Below, in pieces: positions 1 to 41,156 of a DNA stretch of 64,000 nt. This stretch comes from Streptomyces formicae (GTDB lineage: Bacteria; Actinomycetota; Actinomycetes; Streptomycetales; Streptomycetaceae): assembly GCF_002556545.1 (NCBI RefSeq), contig NZ_CP022685.1, forward strand, positions 1,612,001 to 1,676,000, written 5' to 3'. A program made the position numbers and the translations under genes. Position 1 is the first letter of the stretch. Every line of letters begins with the position of its first letter. The notes below the pieces were generated by a model, which had not been told where the DNA came from, did not search any database, and saw only the letters and a list, made by a program, of their open reading frames with translations.

Positions 1-381
1 CCTGCCCTTTTTGGACTTCACGCCGGAGGCGCGCAGGCCCTGACTGGCCGTCACTGTGGTCATCCTCTCGTCCACGAGCCTCACCGAAACGGGGGCGACC
101 ATGCGGGCGAGGTCCTGGGTGAAGGCGCGGATCTTGGCGGCCGCCGGGCCCTCGCCCCCGTTGAGGGAGCGAGGGAGGCCGACGACGATCTCGATCGGCT
201 CGTACTCGTCGACCAGCTGCTTCAACCGGCGCTGGGCCGCCGGGACGTCGCGCCCCGGCACCGTCTCGACCGGCGTCGCCAGGATCCCGTCGGGGTCGCA
301 CGAGGCGACCCCGATGCGGGCGTCACCGACGTCGATGGCGAGCCGTCGGCCCCTGCGCATGCCCTGGGCAGGCTCGGTCAT
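1..381 (-). CDS. ruvX: RuvX/YqgF-family Holliday junction resolvase-like protein (3' end cut by window)
   Basis: Partial: 127 codons are visible and the C-terminus runs off the left edge (family about 140-155 aa). The RNase H-like fold is shown by DVGDARIGVA near residue 16, the GLPRSLNGG loop, and LVDERMTT near residue 98, which carries the conserved acidic/arginine pair. Bacterial YqgF proteins are linked to pre-16S rRNA end processing; resolvase activity was proposed from the fold. The ATG shares one base with the alaS stop (TGATG), indicating translational coupling; an internal ATG seven codons in is an alternative start. The alaS-ruvX order is the standard actinobacterial arrangement. 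Confidence 0.9.
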   Translation of the reverse strand, partial: MTEPAQGMRRGRRLAIDVGDARIGVASCDPDGILATPVETVPGRDVPAAQRRLKQLVDEYEPIEIVVGLPRSLNGGEGPAAAKIRAFTQDLARMVAPVSVRLVDERMTTVTASQGLRASGVKSKKGR

Positions 382-3050
382 CAGGCCGTCTCGGTGACGA
401 GGCGCTCGACCGCGGCGATGGCGTCGCCGACCGCGGCCGGGTTCTGGCCGCCGCCCTGGGCGACGTCCGGCTTGCCGCCGCCACCGCCGCCGAGGGTCTT
501 GGCGGCCGTGCGGACCAGGTCACCGGCCTTGAGACCGCGCTCGCGCGCGGCCTCGTTGGTGGCGATCACCGTGATCGGGCGGCCGTTGGCCGTGGCGAAG
601 AGGGCGACGACCGCGGGCCGGTCGCCCGGGATGCGGCCGCGCACGTCGAGGACCAGCTTGCGCAGGTCGTCGGCGCCCGTGCCGTCCGGCACCTGGCCGG
701 TGACCAGGGCGACGCCGCGGACGTCCTTGGCGGAGTCGACGAGTCCCGCGGCGGCCGCGAGGACCTTCTCCGCGCGGAACTTCTCGATCTCCTTCTCGGC
801 GTCCTTCAACTTGCCGAGCATGGCGGAGACCTTCTCGGGCAGCTCCTCGGGGCGGCCCTTGACCAGCTCCTGGAGCTGGGCGACGACCGTGTGCTCCTTG
901 GCGAGGAAGTTGTACGCGTCGACGCCGACCAGGGCCTCGATGCGGCGCACGCCGGAGCCGATGGAGGACTCGCCGAGCAGCTTCACCAGACCGAGCTGGG
1001 CGGTGTTGTGCACGTGCGTGCCGCCGCACAGCTCCTTGGAGAAGTCGCCGATGGTGACGACGCGCACGCGCTCGCCGTACTTCTCGCCGAACTCGGCGAT
1101 GGCACCGGACTTCTTGGCGTCGTCGATCGACATGACCTCGGCCTGGACGTCCAGCTCGCGGGAGAGGACCTCGTTGATCCGCTGCTCGACGTCCGTCATC
1201 ACGGCCGTGGGCACGGCGGACGGCGAACCGAAGTCGAAGCGGAAACGTCCCGGCTGGTTCTCCGAACCGGCCTGGGCGGCCGTCGGGCCGAGCGCGTCGC
1301 GCAGCGCCTGGTGCGTGAGGTGCGTGGCCGAGTGGGCGCGGGCGATGGCCCGGCGGCGGTGCGAGTCGATCGAGGCCCAGACGGGGGCGCCGACGGTGAT
1401 CTCGCCGACCTGGACGACACCCTTGTGCACGTGGACGCCGGGGACCGGCTTCTGCACGTCACGGATCTCGACGACGGCGCCGCTGTCCAGGCGGATGCGC
1501 CCGGTGTCACCGATCTGGCCGCCGCCCTCGGCGTAGAAGGGGGTGCGGTCGAGGACGATCTCGACGTCGTCGCCCTCGGTGGCGGCGGGCGAGGAGGCGC
1601 CGTTGACCAGCAGGCCGACGATGACGGCCTCGTTCTCGGTGAGCGCGTAGCCGGTGAAGTCGGTGGCGCCCGCGGCGTCGGCGATCTCGCGGTAGGCGTG
1701 CAGGTCGGCGTGGCCGGTCTTCTTGGCCATGGCGTCGGCCTTGGCCCGGTCCCGCTGCTCCTTCATCAGGCGGCGGAAGCCGTCCTCGTCCACGGTCAGG
1801 CCCTGTTCGGCGGCCATCTCCAGGGTGAGGTCGATCGGGAAGCCCCACGTGTCGTGCAGCAGGAACGCCTTGTCGCCGGAGAGGACCTGGCCACCGGCGG
1901 CCTTGGTCTCGGTGACGGCGGTGTCGAGGATGTTCGTGCCGCCCTTGATGGCCTTGAGGAAGGCGGCCTCTTCGGCGAGGGCGACGGTCTCGATGCGCTT
2001 GCGGTCGGTGACGAGCTCCGGGTACTGCAGGCCCATCGTGTCGATCACGACGCCGACGAGGTCCTTGACGACGGGGCCGGTGGCGCCCATCAGGCGCATG
2101 TTGCGGATGGCGCGGCGCATGATGCGGCGCAGCACGTAGCCGCGGCCCTCGTTGCCGGGGGTGACGCCGTCGCCGATCAGCATCGTCGACGTGCGGATGT
2201 GGTCGGCGACCACGCGCAGGGAGACGTCGGAGCCGTGCTCGGCGCCGTAGCGCACGCCGGTCAGCTCGGTGGCCTTGTCCATGACGACGCGCAGGGTGTC
2301 GGTCTCGTACATGTTCTGTACGCCCTGGAGGATCATGGCGAGGCGCTCGAGACCGAGACCGGTGTCGATGTTCTTCGTCGGCAGCTCGCCGAGGATCTCG
2401 AAGTCCTCCTTGGAGGTGCCCGCGCCGCGCTCGTACTGCATGAAGACCAGGTTCCAGATCTCCACATAGCGCTCGTCGTTGACGGCGGGGCCGCCCTCGA
2501 CGCCGAACTCCGGGCCGCGGTCGTAGTTGATCTCGGAGCACGGGCCGCAGGGTCCGGGCACGCCCATGGACCAGAAGTTGTCCTTCTTGCCCAGGCGCTG
2601 GATGCGCTCCTTGGGGACGCCGACCACCTCGTGCCAGATCCGCTCGGCCTCGTCGTCGTCGAGGTAGACCGTGATCCAGAGCTTCTCGGGCTCCAGGCCG
2701 AAGCCGCCGTCGGCCACGGAGCCGGTGAGCAGCTCCCAGGCCAGCTTGATGGCGCCTTCCTTGAAGTAGTCGCCGAAGGAGAAGTTGCCGCACATCTGGA
2801 AGAACGTGCCGTGACGCGTGGTCTTGCCGACCTCTTCGATGTCGGGCGTGCGCACGCACTTCTGCACGCTGGTGACGCGCGGCGCGGGCGGCTTGACCTC
2901 ACCCAGGAAGTAGGGCTTGAAGGGCACCATGCCGGCGGGGACGAGGAGCAGAGTCGGGTCGTCCGCGATGAGCGACGCCGAAGGGACGACGGTGTGCCCG
3001 CGCTCCTCGAAGAAGCTCAGCCAGCGGCGGCGGATTTCAGCCGACTCCAT
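381..3050 (-). CDS. alaS: Alanyl-tRNA synthetase
   Basis: Full-length 889-aa class II AlaRS that charges tRNA-Ala in the cytoplasm. The N-terminal aminoacylation domain opens with [15 protein letters not shown]. The editing domain has both zinc-binding halves, HSATH at residues 573-577 and CGGTH at 675-679, so mischarged Ser/Gly-tRNA-Ala should be hydrolysed. The Gly-rich C-terminal domain (GGGGGG near residue 865) is the usual C-Ala dimerisation region. It starts with ATG at 3050, abutting the stop of the DUF6167-type gene, and its stop overlaps ruvX. It is probably cotranscribed with the two small genes upstream. No T-box leader is visible. Confidence 0.98.
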
Positions 3051-6804: not shown

Positions 6805-7148
6805 GAACCAACCTCTCTGTTCTCTGTGAAATCGGCTTCACCAGGGTTAGGGGAGGTCGCAATCCGCAGCCGGGGAAACCCATCGGATCGGGTGATGCGT
6901 GATCCGGCGGGCAGCCGCTCCCTGGTCTGGGCACATACGTGCAGCACGCGAGTGGCCCACCGACCGCTTCCCGGGATCCGGGATGGTGGTGGGCTGCCCG
7001 CGACACCTTCGACGGTGCGCGACGCTCCTGGATCCCCGTCGCCTTGCGGTGCGGGGCTCCGGCTGAATGTCCCGTTCTGGTGATGCCGGTACAGGACCGG
7101 ACACGGGACGCAGCGCTCGGGCCAGTGTACCGGGTGGCGGAGGGTGCC
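6805..7148. other. Gene-free 344-bp leader region upstream of rpsD
   Basis: No credible coding frame. It must hold the rpsD promoter and 5' leader. Immediately upstream of the rpsD ribosome site is a small inverted repeat GTGAA-N6-TTCAC (6826-6841) that could form a weak leader hairpin. I could not identify a convincing -35/-10 pair or a known ribosomal-protein autoregulatory structure. Confidence 0.6.
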
Positions 7149-7868
7149 TCAGCCGCAGGTGGCGAGGAGGTCCTGGAGGGCCAGCTTCTCGGGGGCGGTG
7201 ACCGTCAGCTCGTACTTGGCCTTGATCCCGGTCCAGCGGCGCCCGTACTCGCACCAGTATTCCTTGCGGGGCGGCTTCCACTTGTCGGGGGTCTGGCTGC
7301 TCTTGACGTGGTTCGTGTCCTTGTCGGCGGCGAGCAGGACGTCCAGGTCGTTGGCGTAGGTGAGGCGCCGCTCCGGGGTCCAGGCCCAGGCACCCGCCCG
7401 CCAGGCGGCGCCGAGCGCGACGACGTGGTCGGTCTGGATCTGGGAGGCCCTGCGGTAGGAGTAGGGCAGTGCCTTGCCGGTGTAGGGGTCCTTCAGCGTC
7501 CCTGAGAGGACGACGCAGGGGTTGCGGTCGCCCTCGCGGAGGTCCTTCAGGTCGCGCCGCAGCACGTCGTCGCGGGTGTCGCAGCCGTTGCGCCCGCCGG
7601 GGGCGTCGGTGTCGTCGGACCAGCCGTCGCCGAACTCGGAGCGCTTGTACGTCTGCCAGTTCTTGCCCCAGGCGACGGTGAGACGGGCGAGCTGCTCACG
7701 GGCGACGCCCGCGGTGGGCGGGAAGCCGGGGCTCGTGAGGGGGGCCTTCGTAGGAGGACGCGTCGTGCGGCGGGCGTCCGCGCGGTCCAGCTGCGGCGGC
7801 GTACAGGCCGTGACCACAGCGGCCAGGACGAGCACCGCCCTTACACCGGATCCGGCGGCTCTGCCCAT
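7149..7868 (-). CDS. HNH-family (DUF1524-type) nuclease, predicted lipoprotein
   Basis: 239 aa from the ATG at 7868. An N-terminal hydrophobic segment (VRAVLVLAAVVTAC, residues 9-22) ends in a lipobox-like VTAC, so a surface-anchored lipoprotein is predicted. The catalytic part has QIQTDHVVALGAAW with the general-base His and DKDTNHVKSSQTPDKW, giving the conserved Asn-His-Lys cluster of DUF1524/HNH proteins. Paired cysteines (NGCDT, NPCVV, YWCEY, ATCG) suit an exported protein. It lies between rarA and rpsD, all minus. A nutritional or competitive extracellular nuclease role is inference. Confidence 0.85.
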   Translation of the reverse strand: MGRAAGSGVRAVLVLAAVVTACTPPQLDRADARRTTRPPTKAPLTSPGFPPTAGVAREQLARLTVAWGKNWQTYKRSEFGDGWSDDTDAPGGRNGCDTRDDVLRRDLKDLREGDRNPCVVLSGTLKDPYTGKALPYSYRRASQIQTDHVVALGAAWRAGAWAWTPERRLTYANDLDVLLAADKDTNHVKSSQTPDKWKPPRKEYWCEYGRRWTGIKAKYELTVTAPEKLALQDLLATCG

Positions 7869-7887
7869 GACGCCGAGCGTAGGCGGC

Positions 7888-7905
7888 CGCGCCCAAAGGG
7901 GCGCG
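7888..7905. terminator. Hairpin between rarA and the HNH gene
   Basis: CGCGCCC (7888-7894), loop AAAG, GGGCGCG (7899-7905). It lies downstream of rarA on the minus strand and partly inside a dispersed Streptomyces repeat (7897-7916). Likely a rarA terminator. Confidence 0.5.
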
Positions 7906-7916
7906 GGGAACTGCGC
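7897..7916. repeat. Dispersed intergenic repeat AGGGGCGCGGGGAACTGCGC, copy 1
   Basis: The same 20 bases recur at 60537-60556. From memory this word is very common between Streptomyces genes, often as the right half of a hairpin. Its role is unknown; termination or a remnant of an intergenic repeat family are both possible. Confidence 0.7.
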
Positions 7917-7974
7917 GACCAGCCACGACGCGCCCGCAGGCGCAGAGGCCAGGTGCCCCGCAGAGGTAGAGCGC

Positions 7975-9336
7975 CTAGCTCTCGGTCTTCTCGCCCTTGA
8001 GCCGCGCACGGACCCGCTCGACCACATCCGCGTAACGGGCCTCCGCACCGTACCGAGTGGGTTGGTAGTACCGCTTGCCCTCGATGGCGTCGGGCGCGTA
8101 CTGCTGGGTGGCGATGCCGCCGGGCACGTCGTGCGGGTACACGTACCCCTGGGCGTGGCCGAGCTTGGCCGCGCCCTTGTAGTGGCCGTCGCGCAGGTGG
8201 GGCGGGACGGGTCCGGCGAGACCGCCTCGGACGTCCGCCTGGGCCTGCTGGATCGCGATCGTCGCGGCGTTCGACTTGGGGGCGAGCGCGAGGGCGATCG
8301 TGGCGTGGCTGAGGGTGAGCGCGGCCTCCGGGAAGCCGATCATCGCGACGGCCTGGGCGGCGGCGACCGCGGTCGGCAGCGCGGTGGGGTCGGCGAGGCC
8401 GATGTCCTCGCTGGCGGAGATCATCAGGCGCCGGGCGATGAAGCGGGGGTCCTCGCCCGCCTCGATCATGCGGGCCAGATAGTGCAGGGCCGCGTCCACG
8501 TCCGAGCCGCGGATGGACTTGATGAGGGCGCTCGCGACGTCGTAGTGCTGGTCGCCGTCCCTGTCGTACTTCACGGCGGCGCGGTCGACCGACTCCTCCA
8601 GGGTCTGGAGGGTGATCTCCTTCTCGCCCTTGGCCAGGGCCGAGCCCGCGCCCGCCTCCAGGGCGGTCAGCGCGCGCCGGGCGTCGCCGCCCGCGATGCG
8701 CAGCAGGTGCTCCTCGGCTTCCTCGGGCAGCTCGACGGCGCCGCCGAGGCCCCGCTCGTCGACGAGCGCCCGGCGCAGCAGGCCGCGCAGGTCGTCGTCG
8801 GTGAGCGGTTCGAGCGTGAGCAGCAGGGAGCGGGACAGGAGCGGCGAGATGATCGAGAAGTACGGATTCTCGGTGGTGGCCGCGATCAGCGTCACCCAGC
8901 GGTTCTCGACGGCGGGCAGCAGGGAGTCCTGCTGGGCCTTGCTGAAGCGGTGGATCTCGTCGAGGAAGAGGACGGTCTCCTTGCCGTGACCGCCCATCGC
9001 CCTGCGGGCGCCGTCGATGACCGCGCGCACTTCCTTGACGCCCGCGGTGATCGCGGAGAGCTCGACGAAGCGCTTGTTCGTCGCCTTGGACACCACGTAC
9101 GCCAGGGTCGTCTTGCCGATGCCCGGCGGGCCCCACAGGAAGACCGACGACGGCCCCGCGGGCCCTCCCCCGCCCTCGCCCACCAGGCGGCGCAGGGGTG
9201 AGCCCGGCTTCAGCAGGTGCTGCTGGCCGACGACTTCGTCGAGGGTGCGGGGGCGCATCCGGACGGCCAGGGGACTACTGGACGGGTCCTTCTCCTGGCG
9301 GTCTTCGGCTGCGGCGGTGAACAGGTCGGGCTCCAC
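7975..9336 (-). CDS. rarA: Replication-associated recombination AAA+ ATPase RarA/MgsA
   Basis: 453 aa from a GTG at 9336, where family homology begins ([13 protein letters not shown]); an upstream ATG adds ten codons but fits less well. Walker A is GPPGIGKTT (about residues 61-69) and Walker B is [25 protein letters not shown] matches the RarA/WRIP1 sensor 1 and arginine-finger region, and the C-terminal half has the tetramerisation region with [20 protein letters not shown] sequence. RarA acts at stalled forks together with RecA and SSB. It lies upstream of the HNH gene in the rarA-rpsD-alaS block shared by actinobacteria. Confidence 0.95.
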
Positions 9337-36330: not shown

Positions 36331-39300
36331 TCAGATGGCCTGCCACAGGGCGGGAACGTTCGGCGGCTCCCAGCCCGGGTAGGCGGTGTGGCCCTGGATG
36401 CAGCGGTAGCGGACGCCGTTGTAGGTCACCACGTCACCCGCCTTGTAGGTGGCACCCAGCTGCCAGGTGGTCTCGCCGCCGCCCGGCACCGTCAGGGTGT
36501 ACGTGGTGGTGTGGGTGGCCTGGCCGCTGCCGGTGAAGGTCAGCGTGTACGTCCCGGCGGTCGTGCCCGCCGCGACCGAGACGGTGGCCGTCGCCGAATC
36601 GCCCGAGAGCACCGCGTCGGGGCTGATGGAGACGCTCACTCCTGACGGGGCCCCCGCGGCCGCGAGCGCCACCTTCTGCGCCGAGCCACTGGTGGTGGCG
36701 GTGGCGAGGGTGACCTTCGCGGAGGAACCGGGCTCGACCGTGCCCGAGGCCGGGTTGGCGGAGAGGGAGAAGTCGTCCGTCGGTGCGGGCTTGTCGCTGA
36801 CGGACGTCTTCCAGACCGCGTACGCGAGCCCGTCCGAGCTGCGGTCCAGCGAGGTGGCGCTGACGTTGGCGGTGGTGTCACAGGCCGAGTGGTAGCACGA
36901 GTCGTACGAACGGCCCGCGGTACCGCCCCACTTCGCGGCCTCGGCCGCGGACTTCGTGGCGGAGGCGCCGGTGGCGTAGCCGGAGGTCGGGATGCCGACG
37001 CTCTGGAAGGAGGCGTCGTCCGAGCGGCCCTGTCCCTCGACGTTCTCCTGGGGTGCGAGGTTGAGGGAGGTCCAGTAGTCCCGCAACGGCACCGAGGCGG
37101 CCGAGTTCAGGTTGTTGATGAAGTACCCGGCGTTCGTCGAGCCCACCATGTCGAAGTTGTAGTACGCCTTGATCTTGGCGCGCTCCGTGCTCGACAGGGA
37201 CCTGGCGTAGTAGTCCGAGCCGTTCAGGCCCTTCTCCTCGTCGGTCCACCAGGCGAAGCGGACCCGGTTCTTCATCGTGGGGTTGTTCTGGGCCAGGCTC
37301 AGCGCGGCCTCCAAGATCGCGGCGGATCCCGAGCCGTTGTCGTTGATTCCGGGGCCCGCGGCCACGCCGTCGAGGTGCGCGCCGAACATGTAGACGTTGT
37401 CCGCGTCGCCCTGCGGCCACTCGGCGATCAGGTTGTTGCCCGCGCCCGCGGAGCAGCCGGAGGCGCAGCTCTGCTCGGTGACCTTGTATCCGGCCGCTTC
37501 GAGCTTGCCCTTCACGTACGCGAGGGATTCGCGGTAACCGGCACCGGTGGCGCGGCGGTTGCCGCCGTTCTGCGTGGCGATGGTGTTGAGCTGGGCCAGG
37601 TGCCCGCGCACCTTCTCCACGTCGATGTCCGGCGGCTGCGTCGGGTTGCCGCCACCGCCCACGGTCAGCGTGTACTGGGCGGTGTGCGTCTTGGTGCCCG
37701 CGGTGCCCGTGACGGTGATCGGGTAGGTGCCGGGCGTGGTGGACGCCGTGGTGGTGATCTTCATGGTGGCGTTGGAGCCGGACGTGACGGTTCCCGGGTC
37801 GAACGAGACGTTCACGCCGGTCGGCGCGCCCGAGGCGGTCAGCGAGATCTGCTGGGCGCTGCCGGTGACGGTCGTGGTGTTGACCGTGGCGGTGGTCGAG
37901 GCGCCCGGCTCGACCTTCCCCGAGGCAGGGCTGAGGCCGAGGGAGAAGTCGCTCTGCTGCCCGGAGCAGGTCGGGTCACCGCTCTGGGCCGGGATGCTGA
38001 TGGCGTCCCAGGCGGCCTTGGTGGCGTTGAACAGGTCGCAGCTCGCGTCGAGGTTCTTCGCCGAGGTCAGGGTGGCGCTGCGGTAGCGCTTGTACGTCAT
38101 GCCGCTGGTCTTGAGCAGCATGGCGCCGTAGAAGATCTTGCCGGCGTTCTTGTTGCCGATGCCGGTCACCTGCTGGTTGTTGCAGGTGGGGCTGTTGGGC
38201 TTGCCGCCGCCGGGGTTGGAGCCCTCGGCGAGGAGGTAGAACCAGTGGTTCATGGGCCCGGCCGCCTTGTGCTCCTCCGTGTTGGGGATCGAGGCGGAGT
38301 AGCAGTTGGGGTCGTTGTTGACCCGGCTCGGGTCGTACATGTTCCGGATCGGGCCCCGGCCCTGGAGGTTGATCATTTCCCCGACGGTGTAGTCGGGGGT
38401 GTCGTAGGGCGCGGGCTCGTTGATGTACGCCTCGGTCAGGGCGCCCATGATGTCGCCGGTCGCCTCGCCCAGGCCGCTCTCGTGGTTCGCGCCGCCGGGC
38501 GTGTTGGAGTCGAGGCCGTGGCCGAACTCGTGGGCGACGACGTCCACTCCGGCGATCCACTCATTGGCACTGTTGTGGCCGATGGTGACGGAGGAGCCGT
38601 CCCAGTAGGCGTTGAGCTCGTTGAGGCCCACGCTCACCGGCCAGCTGCCGCCGTTGCCGTTGTGCCCGTTGCGGCCGAACCACTCCTTGAGCATGTTCGA
38701 CTGCTTCTGCGCGGCGAACATCACGTCGACGCAGCCGGTCTCCCTGCTGGTGGGGTTGCCGGTGCCCCAGTCGTCGGTCGCCTTGGAGAAGACGCTGCCC
38801 TGGTAGCTGGAGCACTGGAGGCCAGGACGCGTGGTGTCGCGCAGCACGTAGTTGCTGCCGGACCGGGAGGTGTCGATGGTCAGCGGGTCGGGGCCGTTCC
38901 ACTTGCTGTGTCCCGTGCCCGCGCGCACGTCGTCGTAGGTGTCGATGACCTTGCCGGTGAGGGCGTTGACGAAGACGTGCAGCTTGCTGGGGTCGCCCGC
39001 CTTGGTCCTGCCGGACAGCTTGGTCTCCCAGGCGAGCGCGGGCGCGTCCTTCTTGACCCGGACGACCAGGCGCTTGGAGTCGACCTTCTTGACCGACGCC
39101 AGCTTCGTACGGCTCGTCCTGACCGCCTGCGCGGCCGTCACCTTCGCCTTGGTGGTGACCGCGATCCTCGCGTCGGTCGCGGCCCGCACGTCGCGGACCT
39201 TGCCCTTGCCGTCGGCGAGGACCACCGCGTCTCCGCCCACCACCGGCAACCCGCGGTAGGTGCGCTCGTACGCGACCGAGTAGAGGCCCTTGACCCAGGG

Positions 39301-39522
39301 CGTGACCTGGTGTCGGTCGTACTGCTCCTCGGGGCCCTTGGCCAGCGAGTCGAGGCCGCTGCGCACCGCCTTGTCGGCGGCGGCGACGGCTCTCGCGAGG
39401 GGGTCCGGCTTGCCCGCGGCGGGCGCGGTCCGTGCCGCCGCCGAGGCGAAGGAGGCCGGTACCGTCACCCCCGCGAGTGCCAGGGCCAGGGTTATCCCGG
39501 CCGCTGCGGATCTTCTGAGCAT
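36331..39522 (-). CDS. Secreted multidomain protease: M4 endopeptidase + M28 aminopeptidase + Ig-like modules + CBM5/12-like tail
   Basis: 1063 aa from the ATG at 39522 with AAGGAG six bases upstream. Order: signal peptide (about 1-29); FTP/PepSY-type propeptide (to about 200); M4 thermolysin-like domain with HEFGH at 331-335 and third ligand Glu353 in GLGEATGD, plus [16 protein letters not shown]. Then an Ig-like module (about 524-620) and an M28 domain with a full ligand set: His716 in [30 protein letters not shown] near 790 and the final His near 877 in CYHSAC. A second Ig-like module (about 917-1013) and a C-terminal Trp-rich domain ([17 protein letters not shown]) like chitin-binding CBM5/12 follow. 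Endo- and exopeptidase in one chain would digest protein on a chitin-like surface; that role is inferred. Confidence 0.9.
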
Positions 39523-39691
39523 CACGGCTCCTTGTGAGAGGTGTTGAGGCTCCGTCGGGCCAGGGGGGAGTACGTGTGCGTCAGGCCGTGCGGTCGTGCC
39601 CGCTGCTCCCGTTCCGGACTGGCGGTGACATGACACCCTCGTGGCAGGCGGAACCCTCACACCGGCCCGGGTCCCGGTCAATGGATTCCCG

Positions 39692-39718
39692 GCCTCCGGT
39701 TCGCCCTGTCAAGAACTG
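39692..39718 (-). promoter_or_regulatory. Possible promoter for the M4/M28 protease
   Basis: In the 221-bp gap upstream of the protease (39523-39743), the minus strand reads TTCTTGACAGGGCGAACCGG, giving a good -35 TTGACA, but no convincing -10 follows at normal spacing. Weak candidate only; I see nothing else in the gap. Confidence 0.25.
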
Positions 39719-39743
39719 GCAAGCGCGGCACACGGGCACCGCC

Positions 39744-41156
39744 TCACTCCGACACGGCCCGCAGCCGCTCCCGGTACTCCCGTACCTCCGGCAGGTCGCC
39801 CCAGCGCCCCGCAAGCCTGCTGTGCAGTCCGCGCAACTCCACGGTGACCATGAACTCCCGCGCGCACACGGCCTCTTCGAGGACCGGCTGCGCCAGGGCG
39901 ACCGCCGCGACGGGATCACCGGCGCACGCCCAGCTGTCCGCGAGGCGCAGCGTGAGCAGCAGGCGCGTGGTGTGCATCACCGGCGGCAGCAGCGCGTACG
40001 AACGGGCGGTGGCCTCGATCGCGCGCCGGGCCACCGCGCGGTCCTCCGTCACCACCGCGAGGTCGCGCAGCGCCCCGCCGACGGCCGATTCGAGCCGCAG
40101 CAGGCCCTCCGCGCCCGCGAGCCAGGGCGCTTCGAGGAGGTCCCGGTCGTCCAGCCTGGCGAACCTGCGCCGCGCGAGCGAGATGTGCCGGCGGCACGCG
40201 GCGGCGTCGTGGTTCAGCGCGTACGCGCGCGCCTGGTACAGGTCCGCCAGGGTCGTCATCCAGCGCCGCTTGGCGTCCACCGCCCCGATGGCCTCCGCGT
40301 ACACGAGCATCGACGCGGCGTCCCCGTCGAGCCGGACGAGGGTCGACATGTCACTGAGGAGGGTCGCGCGGGCCTCGGCGTCCTGGGCGGCGTCGGCCCA
40401 TCGCAGGCCGTGCCCGAACCAGGCCATGGCCACGCCGCTTTGCCCGCGCTCCATCCGCAGCCGCCCCGCGACCTGGGCGTACTGGGCGGCGAGCCGTAAC
40501 TGGCCGTACGGCAGGCGGCCCGTGGAGTTGACCGCCTCGGCCCAGCGGGCCACTCCGCGCAGCAGCCGCTCCACGGTGGTCGCGCACGCGTCGTTGACGC
40601 GGACGAACGCCTCGCGGATCAGACAGGCCAGCGCCGCGGTCAGGCCGTGCAGCAGCTCCGCCTCCGCGCCGACGGGCTCGTCGGCGCGCTCGCGCGGCCC
40701 GGCCGGTCCGGTCAGCAGGTCCATCACCGAACTCCGGTCGGGGGTTTCGCAGCCCACCCTGCCGTGCAGCGGGCAGGCAAGGCCCTCGGCGGGCAGCCGC
40801 GCGGGCCACGGCTGCGTGGTCAGGAGGGCCTCTTCGCCGGGGGTGTCCGCGCCGGGGATCGGCGAGAACAGCGTGGGCGCCGTCAGGAGGGGCCCTGGCA
40901 CGCGCACTGACGGTGGCGGCGAGGCGAGGGCGGCGGCGAGCCGTCCCCCGGTCTCCAGGACGGCGTCGAGCCGGTTCACCAGGTCGAAGGGCGGCTCCCG
41001 CAGCCCGCCCTCGAGCCTGCTGATGAAGCTGTGGTGGTACCCCACCCGCCTGCCGAGCTGCAGCTGGGTGAGTCCGGCCCGCCGACGGTGGAAGCGCAGC
41101 TGCCGCCCGAACTCCACCCACCCCGGGTCGGCCGCCTGTGACACGCCGCCGGACAT
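39744..41156 (-). CDS. XRE-family helix-turn-helix regulator with a long helical C-terminus
   Basis: 470 aa from the ATG at 41156 behind AGGGAGGGG. N-terminal HTH: FGRQLRFHRRRAGLTQLQLG then YHHSFISRLEGGLREPP (about residues 16-57), with the recognition-helix pattern of XRE proteins. The remaining roughly 380 residues are Ala/Leu/Arg-rich helices, likely TPR-like, as in Streptomyces ligand-responsive XRE regulators. It lies directly upstream of and codirectional with the protease, so it may control it and itself. A palindrome at 41215-41241 lies upstream. Confidence 0.85.
   Translation of the reverse strand: MSGGVSQAADPGWVEFGRQLRFHRRRAGLTQLQLGRRVGYHHSFISRLEGGLREPPFDLVNRLDAVLETGGRLAAALASPPPSVRVPGPLLTAPTLFSPIPGADTPGEEALLTTQPWPARLPAEGLACPLHGRVGCETPDRSSVMDLLTGPAGPRERADEPVGAEAELLHGLTAALACLIREAFVRVNDACATTVERLLRGVARWAEAVNSTGRLPYGQLRLAAQYAQVAGRLRMERGQSGVAMAWFGHGLRWADAAQDAEARATLLSDMSTLVRLDGDAASMLVYAEAIGAVDAKRRWMTTLADLYQARAYALNHDAAACRRHISLARRRFARLDDRDLLEAPWLAGAEGLLRLESAVGGALRDLAVVTEDRAVARRAIEATARSYALLPPVMHTTRLLLTLRLADSWACAGDPVAAVALAQPVLEEAVCAREFMVTVELRGLHSRLAGRWGDLPEVREYRERLRAVSE

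Follow-up and report, generated by a model that had tools for sequence, protein, structure and literature searches.

A predicted secreted M4-M28 fusion protease with an adjacent NsdA-family regulator and candidate operator in Streptomyces formicae

The fusion gene and its two catalytic halves

The window analysed here is a 64,000-nucleotide stretch of Streptomyces formicae contig NZ_CP022685.1 (positions 1,612,001 to 1,676,000), and it contains a gene for a putative secreted metalloprotease, preceded by a regulator gene with a candidate operator and promoter-like boxes between them (Table 1). A preliminary description made from the nucleotide sequence had placed the protease reading frame at 36331-39522, and these coordinates stand, although the coding strand is the minus strand, as the plus-strand reading contains a stop. 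Translation from 39522 to 36331 gives the single 1063-codon frame without interruption that had been described, with a GTG directly preceding the ATG and the start thus uncertain by one codon. G+C at the third codon position ranges from 90 to 100% across all 100-codon blocks, and the gene lacks TTA codons, a pattern usual for genes of organisms rich in G+C.

Table 1. Features of the protease locus, in window coordinates.
Feature	Coordinates	Strand	Details
M4-M28 fusion protease gene	36331..39522	-	1063 aa; ATG at 39522, stop 36333-36331
Sec signal peptide, predicted	39436..39522	-	~residues 1-29; cleavage site estimated by eye
Propeptide	38920..39435	-	~residues 30-201; FTP 74-112, sub-threshold PepSY 147-196
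M4 thermolysin-type catalytic part	37993..38919	-	residues 202-510; HEFGH 331-335, Glu353, His418
Ig-like module 1	37657..37950	-	~residues 525-622; 56/100 identical to module 2; boundaries approximate
M28 aminopeptidase-S-type domain	36790..37632	-	residues 631-911; His716, Asp728, Glu762/763, Asp791, His878
Ig-like module 2	36484..36774	-	~residues 917-1013; boundaries approximate
CBM5/12 module	36340..36468	-	residues 1019-1061; Pfam 1.7e-19; chitinase A1 domain 1ed7, 1e-13
Ribosome-binding-site-like AAGGAG	39528..39533	-	conserved in most aligned loci
Promoter-like boxes	39653..39681	-	TTGACC (39681-39676), 17-nt spacer, GAGGGT (39658-39653)
Candidate operator CTTGCCAGTTCTTGACA	39707..39723	-	direct repeat, 10-bp period; starts 201 bp before ATG
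NsdA-family HTH regulator	39744..41156	-	470 aa; co-directional, immediate upstream neighbour of the fusion

Along the protein the order is signal peptide, FTP-type propeptide, M4, Ig-like module, aminopeptidase-S-type M28, Ig-like module and CBM5/12. All five Pfam families that the preliminary description had anticipated were found above curated cut-offs, namely FTP (residues 74-112), Peptidase_M4 (202-337), M4_C (350-510), Peptidase_M28 (697-902) and CBM_5_12 (1019-1061), the last confirming the proposed CBM5/12-like tail with 70.0 bits against a cut-off of 26.2 and coverage of positions 1-44 of the 44-position profile; a PepSY match at 147-196 fell below its cut-off. The resemblance noticed earlier between the two Ig-like modules was upheld, with an alignment score of 282 compared with 57.6 +- 8.1 (maximum 88) in 300 shuffles, and judged by this score they are clearly duplicates.

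Both active sites previously described as complete are indeed so, in a single polypeptide that is predicted to be secreted. The M4 half has the HExxH motif, the third ligand Glu353 and, at the place of the M4 catalytic His, His418, which was absent from the earlier list of residues, while the M28 half has the full two-zinc ligand set (His, Asp, Glu, Asp, His) together with the catalytic Glu. These eleven catalytic and metal positions, five in M4 (His331, Glu332, His335, Glu353, His418) and six in M28 (His716, Asp728, Glu762, Glu763, Asp791, His878), are invariant in 235/235 distinct listed homologues, which comprise the best 120 of 1551 and the best 120 of 2975 matches with the window's protein included, both searches drawing on limited candidate sets of a very large protein collection.

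Using a profile of 21 M4 domains we found thermolysin at 2.3e-33, and its residues Val139, Val192 and Leu202, which we take to line the S1' pocket, align with Val328, Ile384 and Ile392 of the fusion. Thermolysin cleaves before hydrophobic residues. Elsewhere in this genome there are four M4 and two M28 paralogues. Proteins akin to the M4 half, with an Ig-like module and no M28, were seen at loci L012-L018, L099, L100, L137 and L138, and inspection by eye of L013 and L018 suggests that there the place of M28 is taken by putative-Ig and MAM-like modules.

Likewise, 141 of 279 aligned residues of the M28 half are identical to the solved aminopeptidase 1cp7, which we take to be Streptomyces aminopeptidase S (SGAP). 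SGAP favours hydrophobic N-termini, and if its preference and that of thermolysin both hold here, the M4 half would make substrates for the M28 half. However, Phe219 of SGAP, presumably a pocket residue, aligns with Ala850 of the fusion, which is invariant in a 62-sequence alignment; this weakens a simple transfer of SGAP specificity, and the specificity of the M28 half may differ. One fusion protein (P0176) is named 'Leupeptin-inactivating enzyme 1 precursor' by its source, presumably after its M28 half, and S. lividans SLIV_15325, with the same leupeptin-inactivating name, appears in a published deletion-strain table (PMC5994538).

Distribution, tails and naming of the family

Far from being an isolated oddity, the M4-M28 core is present in the best 120 of 1551 protein matches (the window's own and one labelled partial included), and M4-Ig-M28 lies in one frame in 80/80 of the best GTDB loci, a fraction to be expected of best full-length matches and no estimate of frequency in the family as a whole, as these loci are the best 80 of 219 confirmed relatives ranked by match to the full-length query. 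An assembly artefact or frameshift at residues 600-640, the point at which the preliminary description had considered that the fusion might fail, is ruled out, since M4 and M28 are in frame in all 80 of these loci, from other assemblies. The 80 loci fall in seven named actinobacterial families (Streptomycetaceae 63, Kribbellaceae 6, Pseudonocardiaceae 4, Micromonosporaceae 2, Thermomonosporaceae 2, Nocardioidaceae 1, Intrasporangiaceae 1) plus one unassigned record. Within the window's genus the fusion was found in 10 of 61 sampled genomes, and in a phylum sample (E up to 1e-60) in 1 of 60, the window's own.

C-terminal tails differ between these loci: CBM5/12 in 30, a CBM5/12 variant in 2, MAM-like in 36, He_PIG in 8, P-domain in 2, none in one and cut by a contig end in one, with classes set by script from the sequence ends and Pfam run on seven loci and five other homologues. 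He_PIG and P-domain tails were each confirmed by Pfam on one locus, and both CBM variants were confirmed; an InhA-like MAM match was above cut-off in P0172 alone, below it in others and absent from L066 and P0121. By these assignments the tail module is swapped between lineages, and because of this, chitin binding is not the core function: the idea of action on a chitin-like surface does not hold as a general account when the CBM5/12 tail is found in just 30/80 loci (plus the 2 variants).

Databases mostly name the fusion by its M28 half only, as 'M28 family peptidase' or 'M20/M25/M40 family metallo-hydrolase', with a few entries as 'Zn-dependent metalloprotease'. Both sites are intact in this family. 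It had also been considered that this might be a large, already characterised family; it is large, but no description of an M4-M28 fusion was present among the open-licence titles and abstract starts listed. The family is thus widespread, well populated in databases and apparently unstudied.

An NsdA-family regulator and a candidate operator

A regulator lies beside the fusion in 35 of the 80 loci, co-directionally upstream in 34 and divergently in L040, the latter detected by profile search. The 34 include four Actinokineospora loci and one of Embleya, at 46.6-48.5% identity, and the gap between regulator and fusion is 158-315 bp in 33 loci and 948 bp in L074. Four other neighbours (EF-G-like, a 579-aa protein, HIT-like and threonyl-tRNA-synthetase-like, named by eye) stand beside the fusion in 1/80 each, all at the same locus L073, some loci having short flanks. 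Among the 61 genus genomes a regulator homologue (E up to 1e-30) was found in three (G000, G099, G105), all of them among the ten fusion carriers, and it adjoins the fusion each time.

The regulator scores 90.8 bits against the cut-off of 75 for the NCBIfam NsdA-family model NF053720, and 25.4 against the cut-off of 830 for the NsdA equivalog NF050130. By these profile scores it belongs among the TPR-like regulators of the NsdA family without being NsdA itself. A profile match to PlcR (RRNPP, 2qfc) covers the HTH only (positions 14-65), and no Pfam match was obtained in the C-terminal part. Residues Cys128-Pro-Leu-His131-x4-Cys136 are invariant in 20/20 aligned members and, with no Pfam match at 128-136, form a possible metal site.

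Aligned intergenic regions before the fusion contain the direct repeat YTTGCCRGNNNTTGMCR. Allowing two mismatches at most, the repeat lies ahead of the fusion in 34/34 loci with a co-directional regulator, at -151 to -236 and without mismatch in 31 of them, and in 5/46 other loci; as the pattern was written after viewing regulator-adjacent loci, and the loci are related, the 34/34 is descriptive and not independent. Less affected by this choice are the spacing of the TTGA box, the genome-wide count of the exact pattern and the regulator content of genomes with and without the motif, all given below. The pattern has 126 matches over the 80 loci (1.465 Mb, both strands, true sites included). A TTGA box follows 42-43 nt after the motif start in 35/40 sites, which come from related genomes, compared with 23/4000 random placements, and is itself followed by a GAGGGT-like box. 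A sigma-70 promoter and terminator scan of the region returned 0 and 0 sites and did not pick up these promoter-like boxes. Between the boxes and the start codon (39523-39652, minus strand, ~130 nt), Streptomyces loci have further conserved blocks, such as CATGTCAC or CATGACATG.

In the whole 9.6-Mb genome the exact operator occurs once, at the fusion gene. Sites with one mismatch number 22 besides the exact one (23 in all), compared with 44 in the reversed control, and with fewer sites than in that control there is no sign of a wider operator regulon in this genome. Upstream of the regulator gene itself the operator was matched in 1/35 loci, and this sole match (L027) is explained by a contig end that cuts the regulator, so that the match lies at the protease operator. 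A search of the 61 genus genomes for operator plus TTGA gave G000, G099 and an isolated site in G014, a genome with no fusion or regulator within the cut-offs applied; G105 instead carries a site with one mismatch.

Five motif-bearing fusions have no co-directional regulator beside them, and all five of their genomes hold a regulator (G137 and G139 known beforehand; G135, G136 and G140 new), compared with 0/6 genomes of motif-less fusions (E up to 1e-10; 6 of 41 loci tested). In the three new genomes the regulator, whose match in G135 is divided between two contigs, adjoins another fusion copy, convergently in G135 and G136 and co-directionally in G140, where the co-directional copy has exact operator matches upstream. 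Its presence is therefore not proof that it serves the sampled copy, and it may serve the neighbouring one. At L128 and L130 a regulator and a further fusion are convergent (7017-8372 (+) and 11813-9123 (-); 44-409 (+) and 2998-1148 (-), respectively), and at L129 they are co-directional (2519-1164 (-) and 686-3 (-)); in the three genomes of L128-L130 the other fusion copy has the operator without an adjoining regulator. One Embleya hyalina genome (G139) has two fusion copies (L062 and L064); the copy adjoining the regulator matches the operator exactly, whereas its counterpart shows two mismatches and bears another kind of tail. Neither motif nor nearby regulator was found in 41/80 loci, and regulation through this operator is thus not general to the family.

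We read regulator, operator and protease as a dedicated cassette, with predicted activity, regulation and specificity, and since the candidate operator lies upstream of the -35-like box, its placement favours an activator over a repressor. That the regulator instead represses the protease until released by a ligand seems to us rather unlikely: a report on its NsdA relative in S. rimosus, NsdAsr, describes DNA binding in gel shifts and repression of targets (PMC12243394), and NCBIfam labels NF050130 a transcriptional repressor, but the conserved site lies outside the promoter, upstream of the -35-like box and at a constant distance of 42-43 nt from it.

Evolution and proposed action of the fusion

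We compared trees of the two halves, both of a quick kind without bootstrap. Each holds 56 fused rows, which remained after near-copies were removed from a set made up of the window's protein, 82 loci and 8 other named homologues. To these the M28 tree adds 49 stand-alone rows out of 128, a number reached from 134 matches by dropping three repeated loci and three likely fusion fragments; it retains some rows labelled partial by their source (P0283, P0292, P0296, P0316, P0330, P0341) and one very long branch (L120). In the M4 tree the fused rows and 13 M4-only rows form one fully supported group, and the three of the genome's four other M4 proteins that were included all lie outside it. In the M28 tree the fused forms are intermingled with stand-alone ones, with 13 changes, at least 7 of which are forced by well-supported (starred) branches. 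A single origin of the fusion was considered and rejected, as the grouping of fused rows in the M4 tree is not repeated in the M28 tree, where the two forms are mixed; because of this mixing, repeated separation and repeated joining are indistinguishable. By these trees the fusion is probably old, with repeated separation or joining, and it is not indispensable, given that M28 also occurs alone and the two states switch often.

Activation of M28 by M4 in cis, which the case of PaAP and elastase had brought to mind, was also set aside as the reason for the fusion. In the complete stand-alone M28 enzymes among 20 N-termini inspected, signal peptide and enzyme are separated by a short segment only, and nothing obvious would have to be removed from them.

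We consider it reasonably probable that the gene encodes a secreted, bifunctional zinc protease under a dedicated local switch. Its active sites are intact and conserved, as are its architecture and, around part of the family, the association of regulator, operator and gene. Transcription would start from the promoter-like boxes ~135-160 bp before the ATG, with the NsdA-family regulator presumably bound at the direct-repeat operator, whose centre lies ~34 bp upstream of the -35 box. Once expressed, the preproprotein would be exported via its predicted signal peptide and the FTP-type propeptide removed, as in other M4 enzymes. The M4 domain would then cut proteins internally, most likely before hydrophobic residues, and the attached M28 aminopeptidase would cooperate by trimming the newly exposed N-terminal residues, so that free amino acids and shorter peptides would be released in one place. 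The presumed role of the Ig-like modules is that of spacers, and the tail, a CBM5/12 in this protein, may anchor the enzyme to a surface that differs between lineages. An endo- and an exopeptidase in one chain would be an attractive natural design for the full breakdown of tough proteins, and the regulator with its operator, the exact form of which is unique in the genome, offers a directly testable switch.

An extension of this reading, which we advance only tentatively, is a self-contained cassette in which an NsdA-family regulator with a single genome target senses its own signal, perhaps a metal or a peptide in view of the Cys-x2-His-x4-Cys element and the TPR-like C-terminal part, and turns on the protease through one operator, the products or metal need of the bifunctional enzyme closing the loop. 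Such a protease-specific, one-gene regulon would move between actinobacterial families as a unit.

It seems to us rather doubtful that the fusion is instead a form of delivery, in which the chain is cut in the Ig linker after secretion, by the M4 half or another protease, and the enzymes work separately in soluble form. Pseudomonas elastase and aminopeptidase, which are separate proteins, provide the model for this. Apparently complete stand-alone M28 relatives (~61-77% identity, among the best 120 of 6529 matches) and M4-Ig proteins without M28 are in keeping with it, as is the interleaving in the M28 tree. Furthermore, in P. aeruginosa the M28 enzyme pro-PaAP can be activated by elastase alone, but elastase is dispensable for this and LysC is the main activator (PMC8208579). 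However, one frame and both active sites are kept in the 235 listed homologues and across seven named families, and if the chain were stably split there would be less need to keep it as one. Ordinary modular shuffling, with the halves joined by chance and kept passively without coupled action, is improbable: tails are shuffled freely and the genome has M4 and M28 paralogues, but the eleven catalytic and metal positions are fully conserved and the regulator-operator unit is maintained around part of the family.

Compared with known systems, the M4 half of the fusion resembles thermolysin and LasB-type elastases in its zinc motif, third Glu ligand, His418, hydrophobic residues at S1' positions and FTP propeptide, and differs in a three-residue deletion before the zinc helix (profile alignment) and in the Ig-like and M28 domains that follow. 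Its M28 half keeps the metal ligands of SGAP and the equivalents of Arg202, Cys245, Tyr246 and Cys250, but SGAP is a separate protein whereas this domain sits behind M4-Ig, with a conserved Cys pair (686, 690) and Ala in place of Phe219. In the PDB, 'Keratinase KP1' (M28-like, 8ac7), which we infer to be the Pseudomonas enzyme PaAP, and 'Keratinase KP2' (Pseudomonas elastase, 1ezm) form an M28-type and M4-type pair with paired keratinase names; unlike the fusion these are two separate proteins, and KP1 matches in two stretches ~160 residues apart, a domain arrangement different from that of the fusion's M28. Finally, the regulator passes the cut-off of the NsdA family (NF053720) and lies far below that of the NsdA equivalog, and in the 61 sampled genomes it was found only beside the fusion.
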